Source: Planctomycetota bacterium | GTDB lineage: Bacteria; Planctomycetota; UBA1135; UBA2386 | Direction: 5' to 3' | Assembly (NCBI GenBank): GCA_016235155.1 | Contig: JACRLW010000053.1 | Coordinates: 78,358-142,357 of the forward strand | Length of the DNA stretch: 64,000 bases | Shown here: positions 10,491-46,503 of the stretch, in pieces | Position numbering within the stretch: the first letter of the stretch is position 1 | Layout: every line of letters starts with the position of its first letter | The notes under the pieces: model-generated | Database searches by the model: none | What the model was told of the DNA's origin: nothing | The model's input: only the letters and a program-made list of their open reading frames with translations | Position numbers and translations under genes: made by a program

Positions 10491-10663
10491 CGCGCGGCAA
10501 CATCGTTCCGGGACGTCGCGGGCGCGGCCGTCGCATCGGGGGAACCGGGTCGTGACGAGGCGCCGTTGCGCGCCCCAGGCAGCTCGCTCCGCCGCATCCA
10601 GTTTGCGCTCCAGGGCTCGGTGTAGGGTTCTCGCCAACGAAGGACCACACCGGAAGAAACACC

Positions 10664-11524
10664 ATGAAGCGCTTCACCATCCTCCTCGCGACCCTGCTCC
10701 TCGCCGGCCTTGCCGCCGCGCAGACCCCGCAACTCCAGAGCTTCGAAGACATCGGCACCTACAGCGCCGATGCCGTCATCGACCTCAGCTTCTCGGGCCA
10801 GACCAACGACGGCGGCGAGACCGGCGGGCGGCATCCGCGCCGTCACTGCCGGCCCGGCTATCGCCGCCACCACAACGGCTGCAACACCTGCCGTCGCCCC
10901 GAGCCGCGCTGCATCGACATCCGCTGCCTGCCGATCGTGACCGACGAGTGCTTCACGATCAGCGGACGCTGCCTCGACTTGATCGACGAGGTTCGCTTCG
11001 GCAGCCGTGTCCTCGCCGAGGGCGGCACGCTCGGTGACGGCGGTTGGGCCGTCTCGGAAGACGGACGCGAACTCGAAGTCTGTCCGCCGCAGTGCCTGCG
11101 TGCCGGCTGCTACGTGATCTCGTTGAAGCGGCGTGGCTGCGTGGTCGCGCGATTCGGCGTCAACCTGTTCGAGCCCCGCCGGCCGGCGATCGCGTGCGAC
11201 GAAGAACTGAGCGTCGGCGAGACCCAGTGCATCTACGTCCACGACGGCGGCCAGGCCCGGCCGAACCGCATGTTCATCCTCATCAGCCCGGACAACACGC
11301 CGTCGGTCATCCCCGGCCTCGTCGAACTCGGCCTCGGCAACAACTTCACCAACTACTACTGCGGCGTCGCGCTCGACGGCCCCTGCGCGGTCGAGTGCAT
11401 CGGCATCGTCCCGCCGGACTTCGTCGGCTTCCGCCTCTACTTCCAGATGGTCGTGCTGAACACGAGCGGCCAGTTCCTGCCGCTGCCCGTGACCGAGGTC
11501 TGCTCGACGCGCTACGTGCGCTGA
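10664..11524 (+). CDS. Secreted Cys/His-rich hypothetical protein
   Basis: Signal peptide MKRFTILLATLLLAGLAAAQ; RHPRRHCRPGYRRHHNGCNTCRRPEPRCIDIRC cluster; no family recognised. Confidence 0.75.
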   Translation: MKRFTILLATLLLAGLAAAQTPQLQSFEDIGTYSADAVIDLSFSGQTNDGGETGGRHPRRHCRPGYRRHHNGCNTCRRPEPRCIDIRCLPIVTDECFTISGRCLDLIDEVRFGSRVLAEGGTLGDGGWAVSEDGRELEVCPPQCLRAGCYVISLKRRGCVVARFGVNLFEPRRPAIACDEELSVGETQCIYVHDGGQARPNRMFILISPDNTPSVIPGLVELGLGNNFTNYYCGVALDGPCAVECIGIVPPDFVGFRLYFQMVVLNTSGQFLPLPVTEVCSTRYVR

Positions 11525-19377: not shown

Positions 19378-19682
19378 TCTGCAGCCCGCGGCGCGGCACC
19401 ACGGGTGGCGATGCGTCGAGCCGGATTCGCCGAACCTCGCCGAGGGAACGCGCTGTGGTCCGGATCCGTCCAAGTCCAGGATCCCGGCAATCGGCACGCA
19501 ACAGCCTTGGCGAGGGTGGCTCGATCGCCTACCCCGACAGGCGGCGGAATCGCGACTTCCGGTCACGTTCCACGCTGCGCAACACGAACTAGGCTGTCCA
19601 TGGCAAACTCCGAGGCCGGGGCTCCTGCACTCTCCAACCCCGGCAACTCTCCAAGCCGACCCCCTCTGTGACGAATCTCGCC

Positions 19683-21377
19683 ATGCGCTCGCTCCTCACG
19701 ACAGTGTCTGCGTTCGCGGCGTTGAGCTTGCCGCTCGCCGCTCAGACCACATTCCAGCGACTCGACGGCCTCGGTGCCGACAACGCCTACGGACGCTCGG
19801 TCGCTTCGATCGGCGACATCAATGGCGACCAGTTCGACGACTTCATGGTCGGCGCGGATTGGGTCGACTCGAACTCGCAGAACAGCGGCACGGTCTACGT
19901 CTACTCCGGCGCGACGCGCAGTCTGCTGTTCTCGATCGACGGCGATTCGATCGGCGACTTCTTCGGCTTCAGTGTCGCGGGCGGCGGCGACGTCGACGGC
20001 GACGGTGTTCCCGATCTCATCGTCGGCGCCTACGGCGATGAGCCGCTCAACAACCTCGACACCGGAGCGGTCTATGTCTTCTCGGGTCGCACGCAGGCCC
20101 TGATCCATCAGTTCCAGGGAGCCGGGATCGAGTCTCGCCTCGGCTACAGCGTCGGGGGTGCAGGCGACGTCAACGCGGACGGCTACGCGGACATCATCGG
20201 CGGTGCGTACTCCGACAACACCGCGGCGGGTGCCGCGGGACAGGCGATCGTCTGGTCGGGCAAGGACGGCAGCGTGCTGTGGACTTTCAACGGCCTGCTC
20301 GCCGGCCACTACCTCGGCTTCGGTGTGGACGGCGCCGGCGACGTCGATCGCGACGGCTTCGACGACCTGATCGTCGGAGCAGTCGGTGACCCCGCGAACG
20401 GATTCCTCTCGGGCACCGCGTTGATCTACTCGGGCCGCACCGGCGCGCAGAGCTGGCGATTCGACGGCCAAGGCCAGGACCTCCAGGGTGCGAGCGTCGC
20501 CGGCGCGGGCGATGTCGACGGCGACGGCCACGCGGACGTCATCGTCGGCGCGCCCTTCGCCGACGACGGCGGGCTCGACTTCGGTTCGGCACGCGTCTAC
20601 TCGGGTCGCACGGGTGCCTTGCTCTACACGCTGACGCACGGCTCGGTGCCGGGTCTGTTGTTCGGCTATCCGGTCGCCGCAGCGGGCGACGTCGACGGCG
20701 ACGGTCGCGCGGACGTGATGGTCACCGCGTTGCTGGGAACGGTGGGCGCGACGCCGGTGACCGGTGGCGTGTACGTCTACTCGGGTGCGACCGGCGGACT
20801 GATCCAGTCGCTCGGCCTCGGCGGCATCGCCGACGCCTTCGGTTGGGGTCTCGCGAGCGCGGGCGACGTCGATCGCGACGGCTTCGCGGAGATCCTCGTC
20901 GGTGCTCCCTTCGCCGACTTCACCGGCGCACAGGCCGGTTCGGCCTACGTCATCGACCTCAACAACGTCGGCACGCCGCCGCGCTGCTACGAGTTCGGAA
21001 AAGCCTGCCCGGGCAGCAACGGCAAGCTCCCGCACATCGGCTATCGCGGACGTCCAGGGCTCGGCGAGACACTCGAGATCACGCTGCGTGGCGCCCTCTC
21101 CAACGCGCCGGTCGTGATCAACCTCGGCCAGGTCGCGAACCTGCCGCTCGATCCCTACGGCTTCACGAACTGCACGCTCTACGCGACGAACGACGGCTTC
21201 GTGGTCGTCCGCCAGGCCGATCCGCTCGGGCTCTTGAACTTCGATCCGCTCGTCGTTCCGAACAGCCCGATCTTCATCGGCCAGTCGATCTTCGCGCAGT
21301 GGATCTGTCTCGACCCGCTCGCGAATCCGGCCGGCTACGCGTTCTCGAACGCGATGGAGTTCGCGTTCGGCAACTGA
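19683..21377 (+). CDS. Secreted FG-GAP (integrin-alpha-like) repeat protein with Cys-containing C-terminal module
   Basis: Repeats such as GRSVASIGDINGDQFDDFMVGA, FSVAGGGDVDGDGVPDLIVGAYGD, AGDVDRDGFAEILVGAPFADF; C-terminus YEFGKACPGSNGKLP... Confidence 0.9.
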   Translation: MRSLLTTVSAFAALSLPLAAQTTFQRLDGLGADNAYGRSVASIGDINGDQFDDFMVGADWVDSNSQNSGTVYVYSGATRSLLFSIDGDSIGDFFGFSVAGGGDVDGDGVPDLIVGAYGDEPLNNLDTGAVYVFSGRTQALIHQFQGAGIESRLGYSVGGAGDVNADGYADIIGGAYSDNTAAGAAGQAIVWSGKDGSVLWTFNGLLAGHYLGFGVDGAGDVDRDGFDDLIVGAVGDPANGFLSGTALIYSGRTGAQSWRFDGQGQDLQGASVAGAGDVDGDGHADVIVGAPFADDGGLDFGSARVYSGRTGALLYTLTHGSVPGLLFGYPVAAAGDVDGDGRADVMVTALLGTVGATPVTGGVYVYSGATGGLIQSLGLGGIADAFGWGLASAGDVDRDGFAEILVGAPFADFTGAQAGSAYVIDLNNVGTPPRCYEFGKACPGSNGKLPHIGYRGRPGLGETLEITLRGALSNAPVVINLGQVANLPLDPYGFTNCTLYATNDGFVVVRQADPLGLLNFDPLVVPNSPIFIGQSIFAQWICLDPLANPAGYAFSNAMEFAFGN

Positions 21378-26437: not shown

Positions 26438-29005
26438 TCAGCGCAGGCGGCGGAAGCCGGAAGCCCGCACGCGGCTGATCTGCTGCATCGGCTCGAGCGC
26501 GAAGTCGAGTCCTTGCAGATTCGTCGCGTCCGACGCGACGTCGACCAGCGCGGGCGAGTCGGAGTTGGGCCAGATCCCGAACAACTCGCCGTCATCGCCG
26601 ATGAGGCCGTCGTTGTCGCGGTCGGTGCCGGCGACGAGCAGGTAGCTCCCGACGGCGATCAGCGACTGCGACGACGACTGCATGGTGAACGCGAAGCTCT
26701 GTGCCGCCGCGGTCTGGGTCTGGAAGACCGTGTCGAGCGTGTCGAAGTCGACGAGCAGCACGTAGACCGTGTCGGTGTTCGACGCCGTGCCGACCGACAT
26801 CGACACCGTCACGCGCTTGCCCGTCGCGTTGGTCGACGCGACGTCGAGGAAGGCGTGGTACTCGCCCGCGGGCAACGAGCCGCGCGTCGCGACGAGGTCG
26901 ACGCGATCGTGGGTGATCGGACCGCCGCCCGCCGCCGCGACGAAGGTCGCCGCGAGCCAACCGGTCGGCTCACCGGCCGCGTAGCCGATCGCGCTCGTGC
27001 CGACCGAGACCGCGAGCGTGCCCGTGCCGTCGTTGAACAAGCCGACCTGCGTGGCACTCGTCGTCGCGCCGAGGTTCACGCCGCTGGGGCTCGCGCGGAG
27101 CAGGGGTCCGATCGGAAACGAGTTCGCGGCATCGCGGAGCGCCGCGACCGGATCGATGAGACCGAAGCCGAAGGTGTTGTCGCGGCCGGCCGCGCCGAGG
27201 TCCTTCGCGTTGGTCGTGATCAGGGCTTCGAGCTGCGCCGGCGTGAACGTGCCGTCGATCGCGAGCAACAACGACGCGAGCCCCGCGACGTGCGGGCACG
27301 CCATCGACGTGCCGTTCTCGAACACGAAGATCGGGTTGCGGTTCACGTCGACGGAGCACGACAGCACGCCGTCGGGGTAGTTGTCCCCGTTCTGGTCGAC
27401 GCTCATGTCGCCGCCCGGCGCGACGACGTCCACCGTCGGCCCGGTGTTGGAGTACGGCGCGAGCTGTTCGTCGAAGCGCACGGCGCCGACCGAGAGGTTG
27501 CTGGGATACGAAGCGGGGTACCCGGGCGTGCTGGTCGCGTCGTTGCCCGCCGCGCAGACGACGAACAAGCCGGCGTTGCGCGCATCGGCGTAGACCTGCT
27601 GCTCCACCGAACTGCTCGACGGCCCGCCGAGGCTCATGTTCAAGACGTCGGCGCGGCCGCGCGGTACCGCGGGTGCTTGCGGTGTCGTGCCCGATGCGTT
27701 GGGCAGACCCGCCGCGTACTTCACCGCCTCCATGATGTCGGCGGAGGTCCCGCCGCCTTGCCCCAGCGCGCGCAGCGCCATCAGCTTGCAGTTCCAATCC
27801 ATGCCGGCGACGCCGCTGCCGTTGTTGCTGCGCGCGCCGATGGTCCCCGCGACGTGCGTGCCGTGCCAACTGCTGTTCGGCGGTTGCGCGAGATCGCCGG
27901 CATCTTCGGGATCGTTGTCGATGCCGTTGCCGTCGCGCGCGCGCGTCGCCGAGCTGATGAAGTCGAAACCCTGCACGAGCCGTCCCGAGAACTCGGGATG
28001 CGAACTGACGATGCCGGTGTCGATGATCGCGACGACGACGGACGAACTGCCGGTCGTCTCGTTCCAGGCCTGATCCATGCGGAGCTGCGCGTAGTGCCAC
28101 TGCAGGCGGTAGTGCGGATCGTTCGGCTCGAGCGATGCGGCGGCGAAGCGCAGCCAGTTCGGACTCGCGGCGCGCACGCCGGGCCGAGCCTCGGCACGCA
28201 GCGCGGCGAGGCAGGTCTCCATCTCGAGGCTCCACTCGAGCGGTGCACCGCTCGTCACGCTCTGCAGCGCCGCGGATCCGACGACGCGGTGCACGCTGAT
28301 CTCGCTCGCTCCGCACGGTGAGACCGGCTCGGACTCGAGACCCGCGGCCGCGAACTCGACGGGATCGATGGCCACGGCCGCGATGCGGCGCATCACGACG
28401 ACCTCACCGCTTGCCATCGGGTGTTGGGCTCCGAGCCATGCGGCTTGCGCGGCATCGCGCCGTTCGCGCGTGTTCGCGGGCACCGGCACTTCGATCGCGG
28501 CGCCGTCGATCGCGCCGGCATCCGTGGCGAGAGCGTCGATCGACCATCGCGCCGCCGTCGGGCCGCCCGCGACGCAGAGATCGAGTTCCATCGCCTCACC
28601 GACCGCGAGCACGCAGGTCGCCCCCGGAGCGAGCCGCGCCGCGAGACGTCCGGTCGCGGTCTCGAGCAGGAACAGCGCCGAGCCGTCCCCCGCGTCGAAC
28701 GCGATACGCAACCAACTTGGCGCGAGCGTGACGCGTCGTACGTCGCGCGGATCGTCGCCGCCGACCACGCCCTCGAGGTGACGCAGTGCGACCAGGGCAC
28801 CGGCGTCTACGGCATGGGCGCGATCGTCGTCGCCGCGCTCGTCCAGGACCTGCCACCCGCCGCTGCCGCTCTGCGGGATCGTGAGCGTGCCCGACAGCCG
28901 CGGGCCCGACGGTCCGCCGCCGCCGCCGCCACCTCCGCAGCCGGCGAGGACGACGCAGGACAACGTCGCGGCGAGGAACGAAGCGAAGGGCAGTGTGGGG
29001 CGCAT
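26438..29005 (-). CDS. S8 (subtilisin-like) serine protease, lipoprotein
   Basis: Lipobox VVLAGC followed by GGGGGGGG; catalytic motifs VVAIIDTGIVSSHPEFSG, WHGTHVAGTIGA, NGTSMACPHVAGLASLLLA. Confidence 0.93.
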   Translation of the reverse strand: MRPTLPFASFLAATLSCVVLAGCGGGGGGGGPSGPRLSGTLTIPQSGSGGWQVLDERGDDDRAHAVDAGALVALRHLEGVVGGDDPRDVRRVTLAPSWLRIAFDAGDGSALFLLETATGRLAARLAPGATCVLAVGEAMELDLCVAGGPTAARWSIDALATDAGAIDGAAIEVPVPANTRERRDAAQAAWLGAQHPMASGEVVVMRRIAAVAIDPVEFAAAGLESEPVSPCGASEISVHRVVGSAALQSVTSGAPLEWSLEMETCLAALRAEARPGVRAASPNWLRFAAASLEPNDPHYRLQWHYAQLRMDQAWNETTGSSSVVVAIIDTGIVSSHPEFSGRLVQGFDFISSATRARDGNGIDNDPEDAGDLAQPPNSSWHGTHVAGTIGARSNNGSGVAGMDWNCKLMALRALGQGGGTSADIMEAVKYAAGLPNASGTTPQAPAVPRGRADVLNMSLGGPSSSSVEQQVYADARNAGLFVVCAAGNDATSTPGYPASYPSNLSVGAVRFDEQLAPYSNTGPTVDVVAPGGDMSVDQNGDNYPDGVLSCSVDVNRNPIFVFENGTSMACPHVAGLASLLLAIDGTFTPAQLEALITTNAKDLGAAGRDNTFGFGLIDPVAALRDAANSFPIGPLLRASPSGVNLGATTSATQVGLFNDGTGTLAVSVGTSAIGYAAGEPTGWLAATFVAAAGGGPITHDRVDLVATRGSLPAGEYHAFLDVASTNATGKRVTVSMSVGTASNTDTVYVLLVDFDTLDTVFQTQTAAAQSFAFTMQSSSQSLIAVGSYLLVAGTDRDNDGLIGDDGELFGIWPNSDSPALVDVASDATNLQGLDFALEPMQQISRVRASGFRRLR

Positions 29006-29108
29006 GGTCGAGTTCCCGTCGGGAGCGACGCGGCATTCAAGCGCGCGCGTCCCGAGTCGTCGACCGCCGCCTTGCCGCGGCACCTTCGCTCGCGCACGCT
29101 TCGCGGGC

Positions 29109-29513
29109 ATGAAGCGTCCGATCAACCCCGGCGAACTCTGCAAGCCGAGCGGCTTCCAGCACGGCTGGCTCGTCGAGAGCGGCGGCGGCGCGCGCACGCT
29201 CTATCTCGCCGGTCAATGCGACTACGACCAGGCGGGCGCCGTGCGTCGTCGCGGCGACCTCGCCGGCCAGGTCCGCGGCGCGATGGAGAACATCGGCTTC
29301 GTCCTGCGCGACGCCGGCATGGCCTTCGACGACGTCGTGCAGCTCAATCTCTACGTGCGCAGTCGCGACGACTACGTCACCGCGCGCCGCGAGATCGGCG
29401 CCGCCTGGAAGCAGATCTGCGGTCGCCACTACCCGGCGATGGCGCTGTTCATGGTGATGTCGCTGCTCGATCCCGACGCGTTGGTCGAGATCCAGGGCAT
29501 CGCGGCCCAGTGA
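29109..29513 (+). CDS. RidA (YjgF/YER057c/UK114) family protein
   Basis: LYLAGQCDYDQAG, GDLAGQVRGAMENIGFVLRDAGMAFDDVVQLNLYV, YPAMALFMVMSLLDPDALVEIQGIA. Confidence 0.85.
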   Translation: MKRPINPGELCKPSGFQHGWLVESGGGARTLYLAGQCDYDQAGAVRRRGDLAGQVRGAMENIGFVLRDAGMAFDDVVQLNLYVRSRDDYVTARREIGAAWKQICGRHYPAMALFMVMSLLDPDALVEIQGIAAQ

Positions 29514-42882: not shown

Positions 42883-45800
42883 TCAGAGGATCCGCACCTC
42901 GAGCCCGTTGCTCGCGCTGATCGCGCCGCTCGGTGCGGCGGGATCGGCGCAGACCACCTGGACGAACAACGATCCGGCGGCCAGCGAGGGCGGGAGAGCG
43001 AAGGTGAGCCGCGCGCGGCCGTCGGCGGCGAGCGCGAAGCCGGCGCTGAGAGGTGACTGCACGAGCAGGTTGCAGGCGCCGAGGATCGGCGTCTGCGCGG
43101 CCGCGGTGCCGAGCAGCAGGATCGAACTCGCGCCCGCGGCGCCATCACCGACGACGAGCGCGAAGGTCTCGCCCGCGGCGGGCCGGCCCTCGCCGGCGAG
43201 GATCGGCGTGCGACCGTTGCCGCCGGGACAGCCCTGCCCGTAGCGGACCGTCGCGACGGGATCGAGGCGGAAGGCGACTGCGGTCGTGCCGTCCGCCGAG
43301 CGACCGGTCCCGACGATCTGACCGTGGTCGTTGATCGCGCGCGCTTCTTCGAGCGTCCAACCCAGCACATCCGCGGGTTCGATCATCGCCGCGAGTTCCT
43401 GCATGCCGCGCGTCGGAGTGTGCAGGACCGCGCGCTTGCCGACGGCGCCGCGCCGCGCGGAGAACCCGACCGACTGGCCGTGATCGTTGATGCCGAACGC
43501 GAGGCTGTGCACGTCGCCGGGCAAGGCACCGAGGTCGACCATCGTGCTGCCGTCGACGCGGAACGCGTGCGGCGCGGAGAACCCGGTGTCCGCCGAGATG
43601 CCGCAGATCTGACCGTGCTCGTTGATGTCGTAGGCCGTCGACCACGCGTGCCCCGACAGCACCCCGAGGTCGCGCATGGCCGTGCCCGCCTGCCAGACGA
43701 AGGCGCGTCGGCCGGCGCTGGCGACGAACGAATCGCCGACGACCACTCCGCGCCCGTTGATCGCGTACCCGTAGCTCGCCGAGCCGCCGAGGAGCGTGCC
43801 GAGGTTGACCATGCCCCCGGACTGCGTCCACACGTACGCGCGCCCGTAGCCGAGAGTCGAGTAGCGCGTCGTCGTGCCCACGACCTGGCCGAGGTCGTTC
43901 ACGCCTGCGGCCGTCGAACTCGTGAACCGTGACTGCGGCACGCCGGTGTACGGGACGAGATAGACCTCTTCGTAGTTGATGCCGCCGGTGATCAGGCCCG
44001 ATGGACTGATCGCCGTGACGTCGTTCGCGGCGAGCACGCGCTGGAAGCCCGCGTAGTCGGAATGGAAGAACGCGCCGCCGACGTTGCCGACCGCGATGCC
44101 GTCGTCGTTGATGTCGCTCACCGTCACCGACGAGTACGGCGCGGTGCCGATCACACGCAGCGCGTAGGTCGGACCAGCCCAGACCTGGAAAGTCGCCGTC
44201 TCGCTTCCGACGCTCGACGTCGCCTGCACGGTGACGGTGCCGTCGGGTGCGGTTCGCGCCACCGTGATCGGGAACGCCGCATGCAGCGAGCCGGGCGGGA
44301 TGAACACCGTCGCGGGGACCGTCGCCGACCCGTTCGGGGTCGCACTCAGCACGACCAGCACGCCGCTCGCGGGAGCCGGTCCGTCGACGGTGATCGTCGC
44401 CGTGTGCGACGTGCCGCGCCGCGCGCGCGTGACGCCGAGTCCGAGGTACGCGAGCCCGCTGAAGGCGTCGTCGACGCGTACGACGAAGCCGTCGCTCAGG
44501 GCGCTCTTGATCGGTTGATAGGCACCGGGCGTCGGGGTGATCGCGGAAGCGGACGAAGCGCCACCCGCCATCCACGCGGAACCGGTGGAGTCGATCGCGA
44601 GACCCGCGAGCGCATGCGAGCCGATCGCGAGCACCTGCTCGCTGCACCAGGCACGACCGTCCGGCGCCATCCTCACGACGCGCGATCCGTTCTGCGTCGT
44701 TCCGCCAGGCAGTCGTCCGGCGTGCAACAGCACCGGATAGCCGGCGGCATCGACGCGCATGTCGACGATCCCGTCGCCGAGGTTGGCGACTCCGACCAAC
44801 GTGCTCCAACGCAGGGTCGAGAGCGTGAAGTCGAGTCGCGTGAGGAAGCCCTCCGCGTCGGCGGAGGTGTCGCTCGCGCCCGGCCAGTTCCAGACCATCG
44901 CGTCGGGCGTCCGCGGGAAGTCCTTCCGCCGCGTGCCGCCCGCGACGTAGACGTCGCCGCCCGTGCTCGCGAACGCGACCGCATTCGGCACCGACGGGAA
45001 GCGCGTCGAGGCGAGGATCGACGACAACGCCGGGTCGAAGATCGTCACGTAGCCCTGGTCGGCGAGCGTCGTGTCGAACGCGCCCGGCGTGACCGGGTGG
45101 TCCGGCGAACTCGTGAGGCCGCCGACGAGCACGAAGCCGATCGGATCGAGACACAGGGATTCGGCGTGGTCGCTGCCCGTGCCGCCGAAGTAGCTCAGGG
45201 TCTGCAGGACACCGGTCGGTCCGTACTTCGCGATGTAGGCGTCGTCGTAGCCGCCGAGCGACGTCTGCATCGCATTGAGCACCGGCAGGTCCGTCGACAA
45301 CGTCGAGCCGATCACGATCGCCTGACTCGAGCCGTCGAGCGCGATGTCACCGCCGAACGCGAGGTTTCCCGAGAGTCCGCTCCACAGCTCGCGACCCGAG
45401 CCGCCGAGGTAGGTCGAGAAGACGAAGCCGCTGCCGCTCGCGTTCAACCGGCAGACGAATGCGTCGTAGTTGCCGCCGATCGCGGGCTGCGCGGCGTTCG
45501 CGGTGACCGGGAAGTCGGTCGCGTCGGTGTAGCCGGTGATCACCGGCTCCTGCGCGCCGTCGACCGCGACCGCGACGACCGCCTCGAACTGGTTGTAGAC
45601 CGCGCCCGAGCCGCCGAGGTATGCGGACCAGACCAGCGCACTGCCCGACGGATCGAGCTTGGCGACGAATGCGTCGTAGACCCCGTTGATCGCGCGCCCG
45701 AGTCCGCCCTGCTGCGGAAAGTCGAGCGACGCCGTCTGCCCGACGACGTACGCATTGCGCTGCGGATCGACCGCGATGTCGAGCACGTAGTCCCAGTTGC

Positions 45801-46503
45801 TTCCGCCGAGCCAGGTCGCGTAGCCGACGACCGGATCGATCACGAGTGGGAGCGCCGGATCGACTGCCCCGAGCGCGAAGCCGAAGGCGTGTTCGCCGCG
45901 GAGTTCGTAGCGCGCCGCGACCGGGATGCGCCGGTCGCCGTCGGGCTGATACGCGATCGGTGGAGCCTGCTCGACGACCCCGTGCGCCGTGACGATCTGC
46001 AGCGCGCCGTCCGCAAGGCGCAGCACGCCGCCGTCGACGTCGATCGTGATCGAGTCCGGCGAAGCGCCGCGGGCGAGTTCGAAGTCGTACTCCGCGCAAC
46101 CATCGCCGTCGCGGAGCACGAGGTCGACGCCGGGATACACCTCGTCCCAACGCAAACGCGCGCAACGCGGGACGTCGCGGACCCAGGCTGTCGGGTCGCT
46201 GCCGCGCAGGTAGTGCGCGACCCCCGCGAGCGCGGACTCCTCGATCGGCGCGCCATGCCGGCCGTCGCGCGGCGAGAAGCGCAGCACGCTCGTGTTCTCG
46301 CCGGAGGTTCGCACCGTGAAGCCGTCGCGCGCGGCGAACATCGCGTAGCCCGGCGCCCGCGCGACGTGCGTCCAGTGCGCATCGGTCTGCCCGAGGTTGC
46401 GCTCGAACGCGAGCGGGATGCGGACGACCTGCGACTCCTGAGCGGAGGGCAAGGCGGCGAGGAGCACGGCGAAGGTCGGCGCGAACAGGGGGCGTGCGGT
46501 CAT
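42883..46503 (-). CDS. Secreted SBBP-repeat plus HAF-repeat protein with C-terminal module
   Basis: FERNLGQTDAHWTHVARAPGYAMF; repeats (YAxWLGGSxxDY.xDIAVDxxxNAYVVGQT); HAF-type repeats (GVNDLGQVVGTT, AYDINEHGQICG, FGINDHGQSVGFS); C-terminus YGQGCPGGNGRTP. Confidence 0.88.
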   Translation of the reverse strand: MTARPLFAPTFAVLLAALPSAQESQVVRIPLAFERNLGQTDAHWTHVARAPGYAMFAARDGFTVRTSGENTSVLRFSPRDGRHGAPIEESALAGVAHYLRGSDPTAWVRDVPRCARLRWDEVYPGVDLVLRDGDGCAEYDFELARGASPDSITIDVDGGVLRLADGALQIVTAHGVVEQAPPIAYQPDGDRRIPVAARYELRGEHAFGFALGAVDPALPLVIDPVVGYATWLGGSNWDYVLDIAVDPQRNAYVVGQTASLDFPQQGGLGRAINGVYDAFVAKLDPSGSALVWSAYLGGSGAVYNQFEAVVAVAVDGAQEPVITGYTDATDFPVTANAAQPAIGGNYDAFVCRLNASGSGFVFSTYLGGSGRELWSGLSGNLAFGGDIALDGSSQAIVIGSTLSTDLPVLNAMQTSLGGYDDAYIAKYGPTGVLQTLSYFGGTGSDHAESLCLDPIGFVLVGGLTSSPDHPVTPGAFDTTLADQGYVTIFDPALSSILASTRFPSVPNAVAFASTGGDVYVAGGTRRKDFPRTPDAMVWNWPGASDTSADAEGFLTRLDFTLSTLRWSTLVGVANLGDGIVDMRVDAAGYPVLLHAGRLPGGTTQNGSRVVRMAPDGRAWCSEQVLAIGSHALAGLAIDSTGSAWMAGGASSASAITPTPGAYQPIKSALSDGFVVRVDDAFSGLAYLGLGVTRARRGTSHTATITVDGPAPASGVLVVLSATPNGSATVPATVFIPPGSLHAAFPITVARTAPDGTVTVQATSSVGSETATFQVWAGPTYALRVIGTAPYSSVTVSDINDDGIAVGNVGGAFFHSDYAGFQRVLAANDVTAISPSGLITGGINYEEVYLVPYTGVPQSRFTSSTAAGVNDLGQVVGTTTRYSTLGYGRAYVWTQSGGMVNLGTLLGGSASYGYAINGRGVVVGDSFVASAGRRAFVWQAGTAMRDLGVLSGHAWSTAYDINEHGQICGISADTGFSAPHAFRVDGSTMVDLGALPGDVHSLAFGINDHGQSVGFSARRGAVGKRAVLHTPTRGMQELAAMIEPADVLGWTLEEARAINDHGQIVGTGRSADGTTAVAFRLDPVATVRYGQGCPGGNGRTPILAGEGRPAAGETFALVVGDGAAGASSILLLGTAAAQTPILGACNLLVQSPLSAGFALAADGRARLTFALPPSLAAGSLFVQVVCADPAAPSGAISASNGLEVRIL

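Follow-up and report, generated by a model that had tools for sequence, protein, structure and literature searches.

A candidate C-terminal localisation domain on exported proteins of a Planctomycetota-like lineage

Two tailed proteins in one window

The window, which is the whole stretch of 64,000 nucleotides that was analysed, carries two genes for repeat proteins with an N-terminal signal peptide and a similar C-terminal region, referred to below as the tail (tail A where a second domain is discussed). Their features were located by direct reading of the sequence, a signal-peptide scan, and searches with Pfam, NCBIfam and tail hidden Markov models (HMMs), and are as follows.

19668..21377, plus strand: FG-GAP gene, with signal peptide, FG-GAP repeats and the tail at its end
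19683..19742, plus strand: Sec signal peptide of the FG-GAP protein, MRSLLTTVSAFAALSLPLAA before Q (sequence and signal-peptide scan)
19755..20954 (left edge approximate), plus strand: FG-GAP repeat region, passenger 1 (Pfam PF01839, 7 stretches, E 2.2e-41)
20970..21374, plus strand: tail domain 1, C-terminal (HMM E 4e-37; leave-out HMM 6e-32)
42883..46503, minus strand: DUF7948/SBBP/HAF gene, with the second tail at its end
46441..46503, minus strand: Sec signal peptide of the SBBP/HAF protein, MTARPLFAPTFAVLLAALPSA before Q, start ATG at 46503 (sequence and scan)
43267..46440, minus strand: passenger 2, with DUF7948 (about 45829-46407), SBBP and HAF repeats (Pfam, NCBIfam)
42886..43266, minus strand: tail domain 2, C-terminal (HMM E 2.5e-28; leave-out HMM 1.7e-26)

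The open reading frame of the FG-GAP gene opens with a GTG at 19668, and the ATG at 19683 is its probable start. Tail 1 is 135 residues long, with conserved cysteines at residues 13 and 68, and tail 2 about 127; both reach the stop codon. The two tails were 30% identical over 130 residues (pairwise E 4e-13). For a leave-out HMM, every tail of the window's contig was set aside and 119 tails from other contigs were used; it matched only these two regions when the window was searched in six frames, and the next match had an E-value of 0.02. Judged by these comparisons, the two tails are members of one domain family, as the sequence-only reading of the window had held, and the motifs occur in both in the order which it gave. 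The passengers, which it had called unrelated, do belong to different families, although both are propeller-type repeat proteins. The match at E 0.02 lies in a secreted protein without family matches (10556..11521, plus strand), and may be a degenerate tail or a chance similarity.

Copies, position and passengers of the tail

The genome to which the window belongs is a 5.3 Mb draft that is 85.5% complete. A single tail used as query found 105 places in this genome at E≤10, and a profile built from 28 tails found at least 150 copies, each with an E-value of 8e-8 or better; the count is a lower bound because 150 of 366 candidates were scored, all of which matched. Neither the Pfam nor the NCBIfam library has a model covering the tail region. 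The surrounding stretches were read for 147 copies, of which 141 had a visible stop codon. The distance from the end of the domain to the stop was 12 residues or fewer in 124 of these closed copies and 15-54 residues in the other 17, which were largely proteins of approximately 350-380 residues with a short extra C-terminal extension. Two copies (C151:19776 and C146:8303) were exceptions that run on into other sequence, and a further one (C62:31568) runs into masked bases. Ten loci (L036, L041, L087, L097, L127, L133, L140, L142, L148, and L150) were seen to have an extension of 30-54 residues; the extended-tail subgroup comprises about a dozen proteins of 350-380 residues, in which the extension often ends in a PV-containing strand. 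In L109 (C146:8303-8731, minus strand), the tail is followed by an apparent formylglycine-generating-enzyme-type domain, a judgement made from sequence alone.

Export signals were compared between tailed and non-tailed genes using one crude, home-made detector for both sets. A signal-peptide-like start lay within 120 residues of the beginning of the open frame in 80 of 132 tailed frames, versus 40 of 174 non-tailed genes (Fisher 2e-11), and when later starts were allowed the number of tailed frames with such a start rose to 106 of 132. Most signal peptides of tailed proteins end in A-x-A-Q. Lipoprotein-type signals were found in 3 of the 80 tailed exported proteins as compared with 9 of the 40 other exported proteins (p 0.002). 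Within the window, a subtilase with a lipoprotein signal (26438..29197, minus strand) has no tail, and four scanned subtilases elsewhere in the genome are tailed. Many copies, a C-terminal position, and varied signal-peptide proteins are the general marks of a C-terminal tag, and all three were observed. The sequence-only reading had proposed a profile search for C-terminal copies on signal-peptide proteins and had named, as outcomes that would count against it, a lack of further matches or internal matches in cytosolic proteins; further matches were abundant, every one of the 141 closed copies lay within 54 residues of its stop, and this outcome supported the reading.

The passengers are diverse. 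Clustering of 138 of them gave 47 sequence clusters, 34 of which were singletons. Among 86 full-length passengers, Pfam identified Kelch (at least 17), FG-GAP (8), subtilase (4), and LamG (4) families, as well as PKD, NIDO, trypsin, beta-lactamase-like, CHRD, endonuclease I and others, to which NCBIfam added ELWxxDGT, choice-of-anchor B, and sulfatases. On a tree of 86 tails, which was weakly supported because the domain is short, the passenger cluster changed 14 times for the five largest clusters, versus 40.5 times when the labels were shuffled. Tails therefore mostly descend with their passengers and were attached to others on a limited number of occasions, so that the mobility originally proposed for the module applies to those few joinings and not to its usual mode of inheritance.

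Distribution and the C-terminal slot of choice-of-anchor B proteins

Among 294 Planctomycetota genomes sampled, 54 had the tail at E≤1e-6, and these represent 44 of 210 genera. Eight of the 54, from seven families that include the family of the window's genome, contained 44-148 copies each. In other genomes 45 copies were read: 42 ended 36 residues or fewer from the stop codon, one was cut by a contig end, and two were internal; the internal copies are both in G045 (L174 and L182), and both run on into further sequence. A search of genome contigs with a consensus query yielded nine tail loci, the named ones of which were all from Planctomycetota, and the plasmids and phages searched gave no tail match.

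Genomes across the phylum were examined for how their choice-of-anchor B proteins (TIGR04312) end. In tail-bearing genomes, the choice-of-anchor B domain is followed directly by the tail (L228, L229, L230, L241, and L242), or the tail closes a longer protein of this type (L206, L209, L210, L214, L223, and others). The tail is missing from the genomes of families f7 and f20, where these proteins end in dockerin-like repeats; with the Pfam model Dockerin_1, L203, L205, and L208 passed the cut-off and L200 fell short of it. The C-terminal slot of choice-of-anchor B proteins is thus also held by dockerin type I repeats in other Planctomycetota. The dockerin-like ends recorded in tail-free lineages are those of L198-L201, L203, L205, L207, L208, L212, L215-L217, L222, and L247.

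Dockerin-rich genomes, defined as those with at least 7 dockerin matches among the 294, accounted for none of the 54 tail-bearing genomes versus 45 of the 240 others (p 8e-5, with genomes that are phylogenetically non-independent). The 18 families with tails and the 18 dockerin-rich families had none in common (hypergeometric p about 0.01, assuming about 90 families in the sample). This comparative evidence, which is correlative and drawn from non-independent lineages, suggests that the tail may be an alternative C-terminal tag to dockerin-like repeats. The two are dissimilar in kind, since dockerins are EF-hand calcium repeats whereas the tail is predicted to be a beta-sandwich; they share no sequence similarity and are not abundant in the same genomes. 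The dockerin model PF00404 had no match among tail members and none in the window's genome at E≤0.001.

In the sister family f2, the choice-of-anchor B slot was filled by another domain, tail B (alignment A4), which forms the C-terminal 135 or so residues of L202, L218, L220, L225, and L248-L253 and has no Pfam or NCBIfam match. At least 14 copies of tail B were present in each of eight f2 genomes (G030, G092, G140, G183, G196, G240, G268, and G293), in which tail A had only 0-4 matches, and tail B was absent from the window's genome and from those sampled in families f1, f3, f4, and f5. Tail B is complementary to tail A in its distribution, and occurs almost exclusively in genomes with few copies of tail A. 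The two are alike in their length of approximately 135 residues, last position in the protein, many copies, lack of a family model, and two conserved cysteines, and the closing motif of tail B (Q-W-x-x-D...SN) resembles that of tail A. Comparison of the profiles using hhalign gave a probability of 19% and an E-value of 1.2e-3 with alignment A3 and no match with A1, a similarity that is borderline at best.

Predicted fold and probable role

AlphaFold models obtained with native alignments had a pLDDT of 95.8 for tail 1 and 92.5 for tail 2. Both models are all-beta with an identical order of ten strands, the C-terminal one of which reaches the stop codon, and the predicted fold is an Ig-like beta-sandwich that one putative disulfide usually holds together. 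A sequence search of the PDB found no relative of the tail. The best fold matches of the models in the PDB had E-values of 7e-3 and 4e-3, with TM scores near 0.3-0.55, and were generic Ig-like or similar sandwiches; a viral structure library contained no fold match better than E 3e-2. Since no PDB match was better than E 4e-3, the tail has no close relative of known structure from which a function could be transferred. Among 188 tails, both conserved cysteines were present in 137, neither in 32, only the second in 19, and only the first in none, which is the pattern that a disulfide would give. A tree-controlled test of cysteine co-loss contained 2-3 supported pairs, too few for power. At nine loci in other genomes (L162, L166, L168, L171, L173, L179, L187, L190, and L195), both cysteines have been lost together, with GC replaced by GN or similar.

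The balance of probability tilts slightly towards reading the tail as a C-terminal localisation domain, approximately 130 residues in length and so far undescribed, that belongs to a Planctomycetota-like lineage and would send exported proteins to the outer surface or hold them there. Four observations favour a tagging role: where the tail sits, how diverse its passengers are, how rarely lipoprotein signals accompany it, and its alternation with dockerin-like repeats. The tail probably works as a common address label or anchor for exported proteins. A tailed protein would cross the inner membrane by the Sec route with removal of its signal peptide, and the tail, as the signal peptide and putative disulfide suggest, would fold outside the cytoplasm. 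A common receptor or outer-membrane component may then recognise the folded tail, after which the protein would be brought to the outer surface or retained there. By filling the C-terminal slot that is held elsewhere by dockerin-like repeats, the tail would give any passenger that carries it a shared destination, at the outer membrane or past it. The best reading is that the tail would work like the T9SS C-terminal domains, PEP-CTERM, and dockerins and belong to none of these families; the sorting or anchoring role suggested by the sequence-only reading is favoured, and the tail matched no model of the two systems it had offered for comparison, PEP-CTERM and T9SS. Sorting and anchoring modules at the C-terminus are known as a kind, and the tail family, with the details of its fold and its host range, appears to be undescribed; a literature search of open-licence papers found no description of the domain.

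How planctomycete proteins come to sit on the outer membrane, or pass it, is little understood. A tag shared by at least 150 proteins of one genome would allow many hypothetical proteins to be named and assigned a probable destination, and would also be a handle for finding the machine that reads it. A broader proposal, which is tentative and has a good deal less than an even chance, is that a whole undescribed sorting or outer-membrane export system exists, whose dedicated receptor or translocon would recognise the lineage-specific tails A and B on more than 150 proteins per genome, with these tails taking the place of dockerin or PEP-CTERM tags. The complementary ranges of tail A, tail B, and dockerin repeats yield a testable prediction of which lineages share which machine. 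Type II secretin genes were present in all 17 of the genomes tested, with or without tails, and secretin presence therefore does not discriminate.

The predicted fold is generic and could equally bind a ligand. The tail might then serve for adhesion or ligand binding, for instance to extracellular polysaccharide or in matrix assembly, and would only make passengers stick after secretion by other means. The weak Foldseek neighbours include adhesin repeat domains, sugar-binding sandwiches, and biofilm proteins, the passengers are mostly adhesive or repeat proteins, and a binding domain would likewise predict a common destination while leaving no secretion machine to find. However, binding domains usually occur in tandem or anywhere in a protein, whereas the tail is almost always single and last, and proteases, a nuclease, and beta-lactamase-like enzymes are also tailed, so that this explanation is considered rather unlikely. 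A role as a cap for stability or folding, which would close propellers and protect the C-terminus of repeat proteins, is improbable: many passengers are indeed propellers (Kelch, FG-GAP, SBBP) and tails are mostly inherited with their passenger families, but non-propeller enzymes and small proteins also carry them, and alternation with dockerin-like repeats within one passenger family would be unexpected for a fold-specific cap.

The T9SS C-terminal domains of Bacteroidota, which are seven-stranded Ig-like beta-sandwiches of 70-100 residues (PMC11285876), operate by a similar logic, in which diverse cargo carries a signal peptide and a C-terminal Ig-like beta-sandwich (PMC4804311, PMC11285876). 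The type A domain (Por_Secre_tail, PF18962 / TIGR04183) resembles the tail as a folded C-terminal beta-sandwich that occurs in many copies on varied Sec-exported cargo. The tail, which is also broadly Ig-like, differs in being larger, with about 135 residues, ten predicted strands, and usually a putative disulfide, and in occurring outside Bacteroidota, to which the literature confines T9SS (PMC7463736). Copy number and position would fit a remote branch of the T9SS domain served by a T9SS-like machine, but this is very improbable: no T9SS model matched at E≤1 when 28 and 40 tail members were compared with Pfam and 28 with NCBIfam, and PF18962 had no match in the window's genome. A search with SprA_N had no match in that genome, and none in control genomes either.

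PEP-CTERM, which is short and consists of a PEP motif, transmembrane helix, and basic cluster (PMC1569441), is likewise a common C-terminal tag on varied signal-peptide proteins, and is found in environmental diderm bacteria. Identity of the tail with PEP-CTERM was rejected on direct reading, which found no PEP motif, hydrophobic or transmembrane helix, or basic tail. The PEP-CTERM model TIGR02595 matched two places in the window's genome, neither of which was a tail, and exosortase (PF09721) had one match (E 1e-34; L197, G000:C64:91596-92270, minus strand), which probably serves these two PEP-CTERM proteins.
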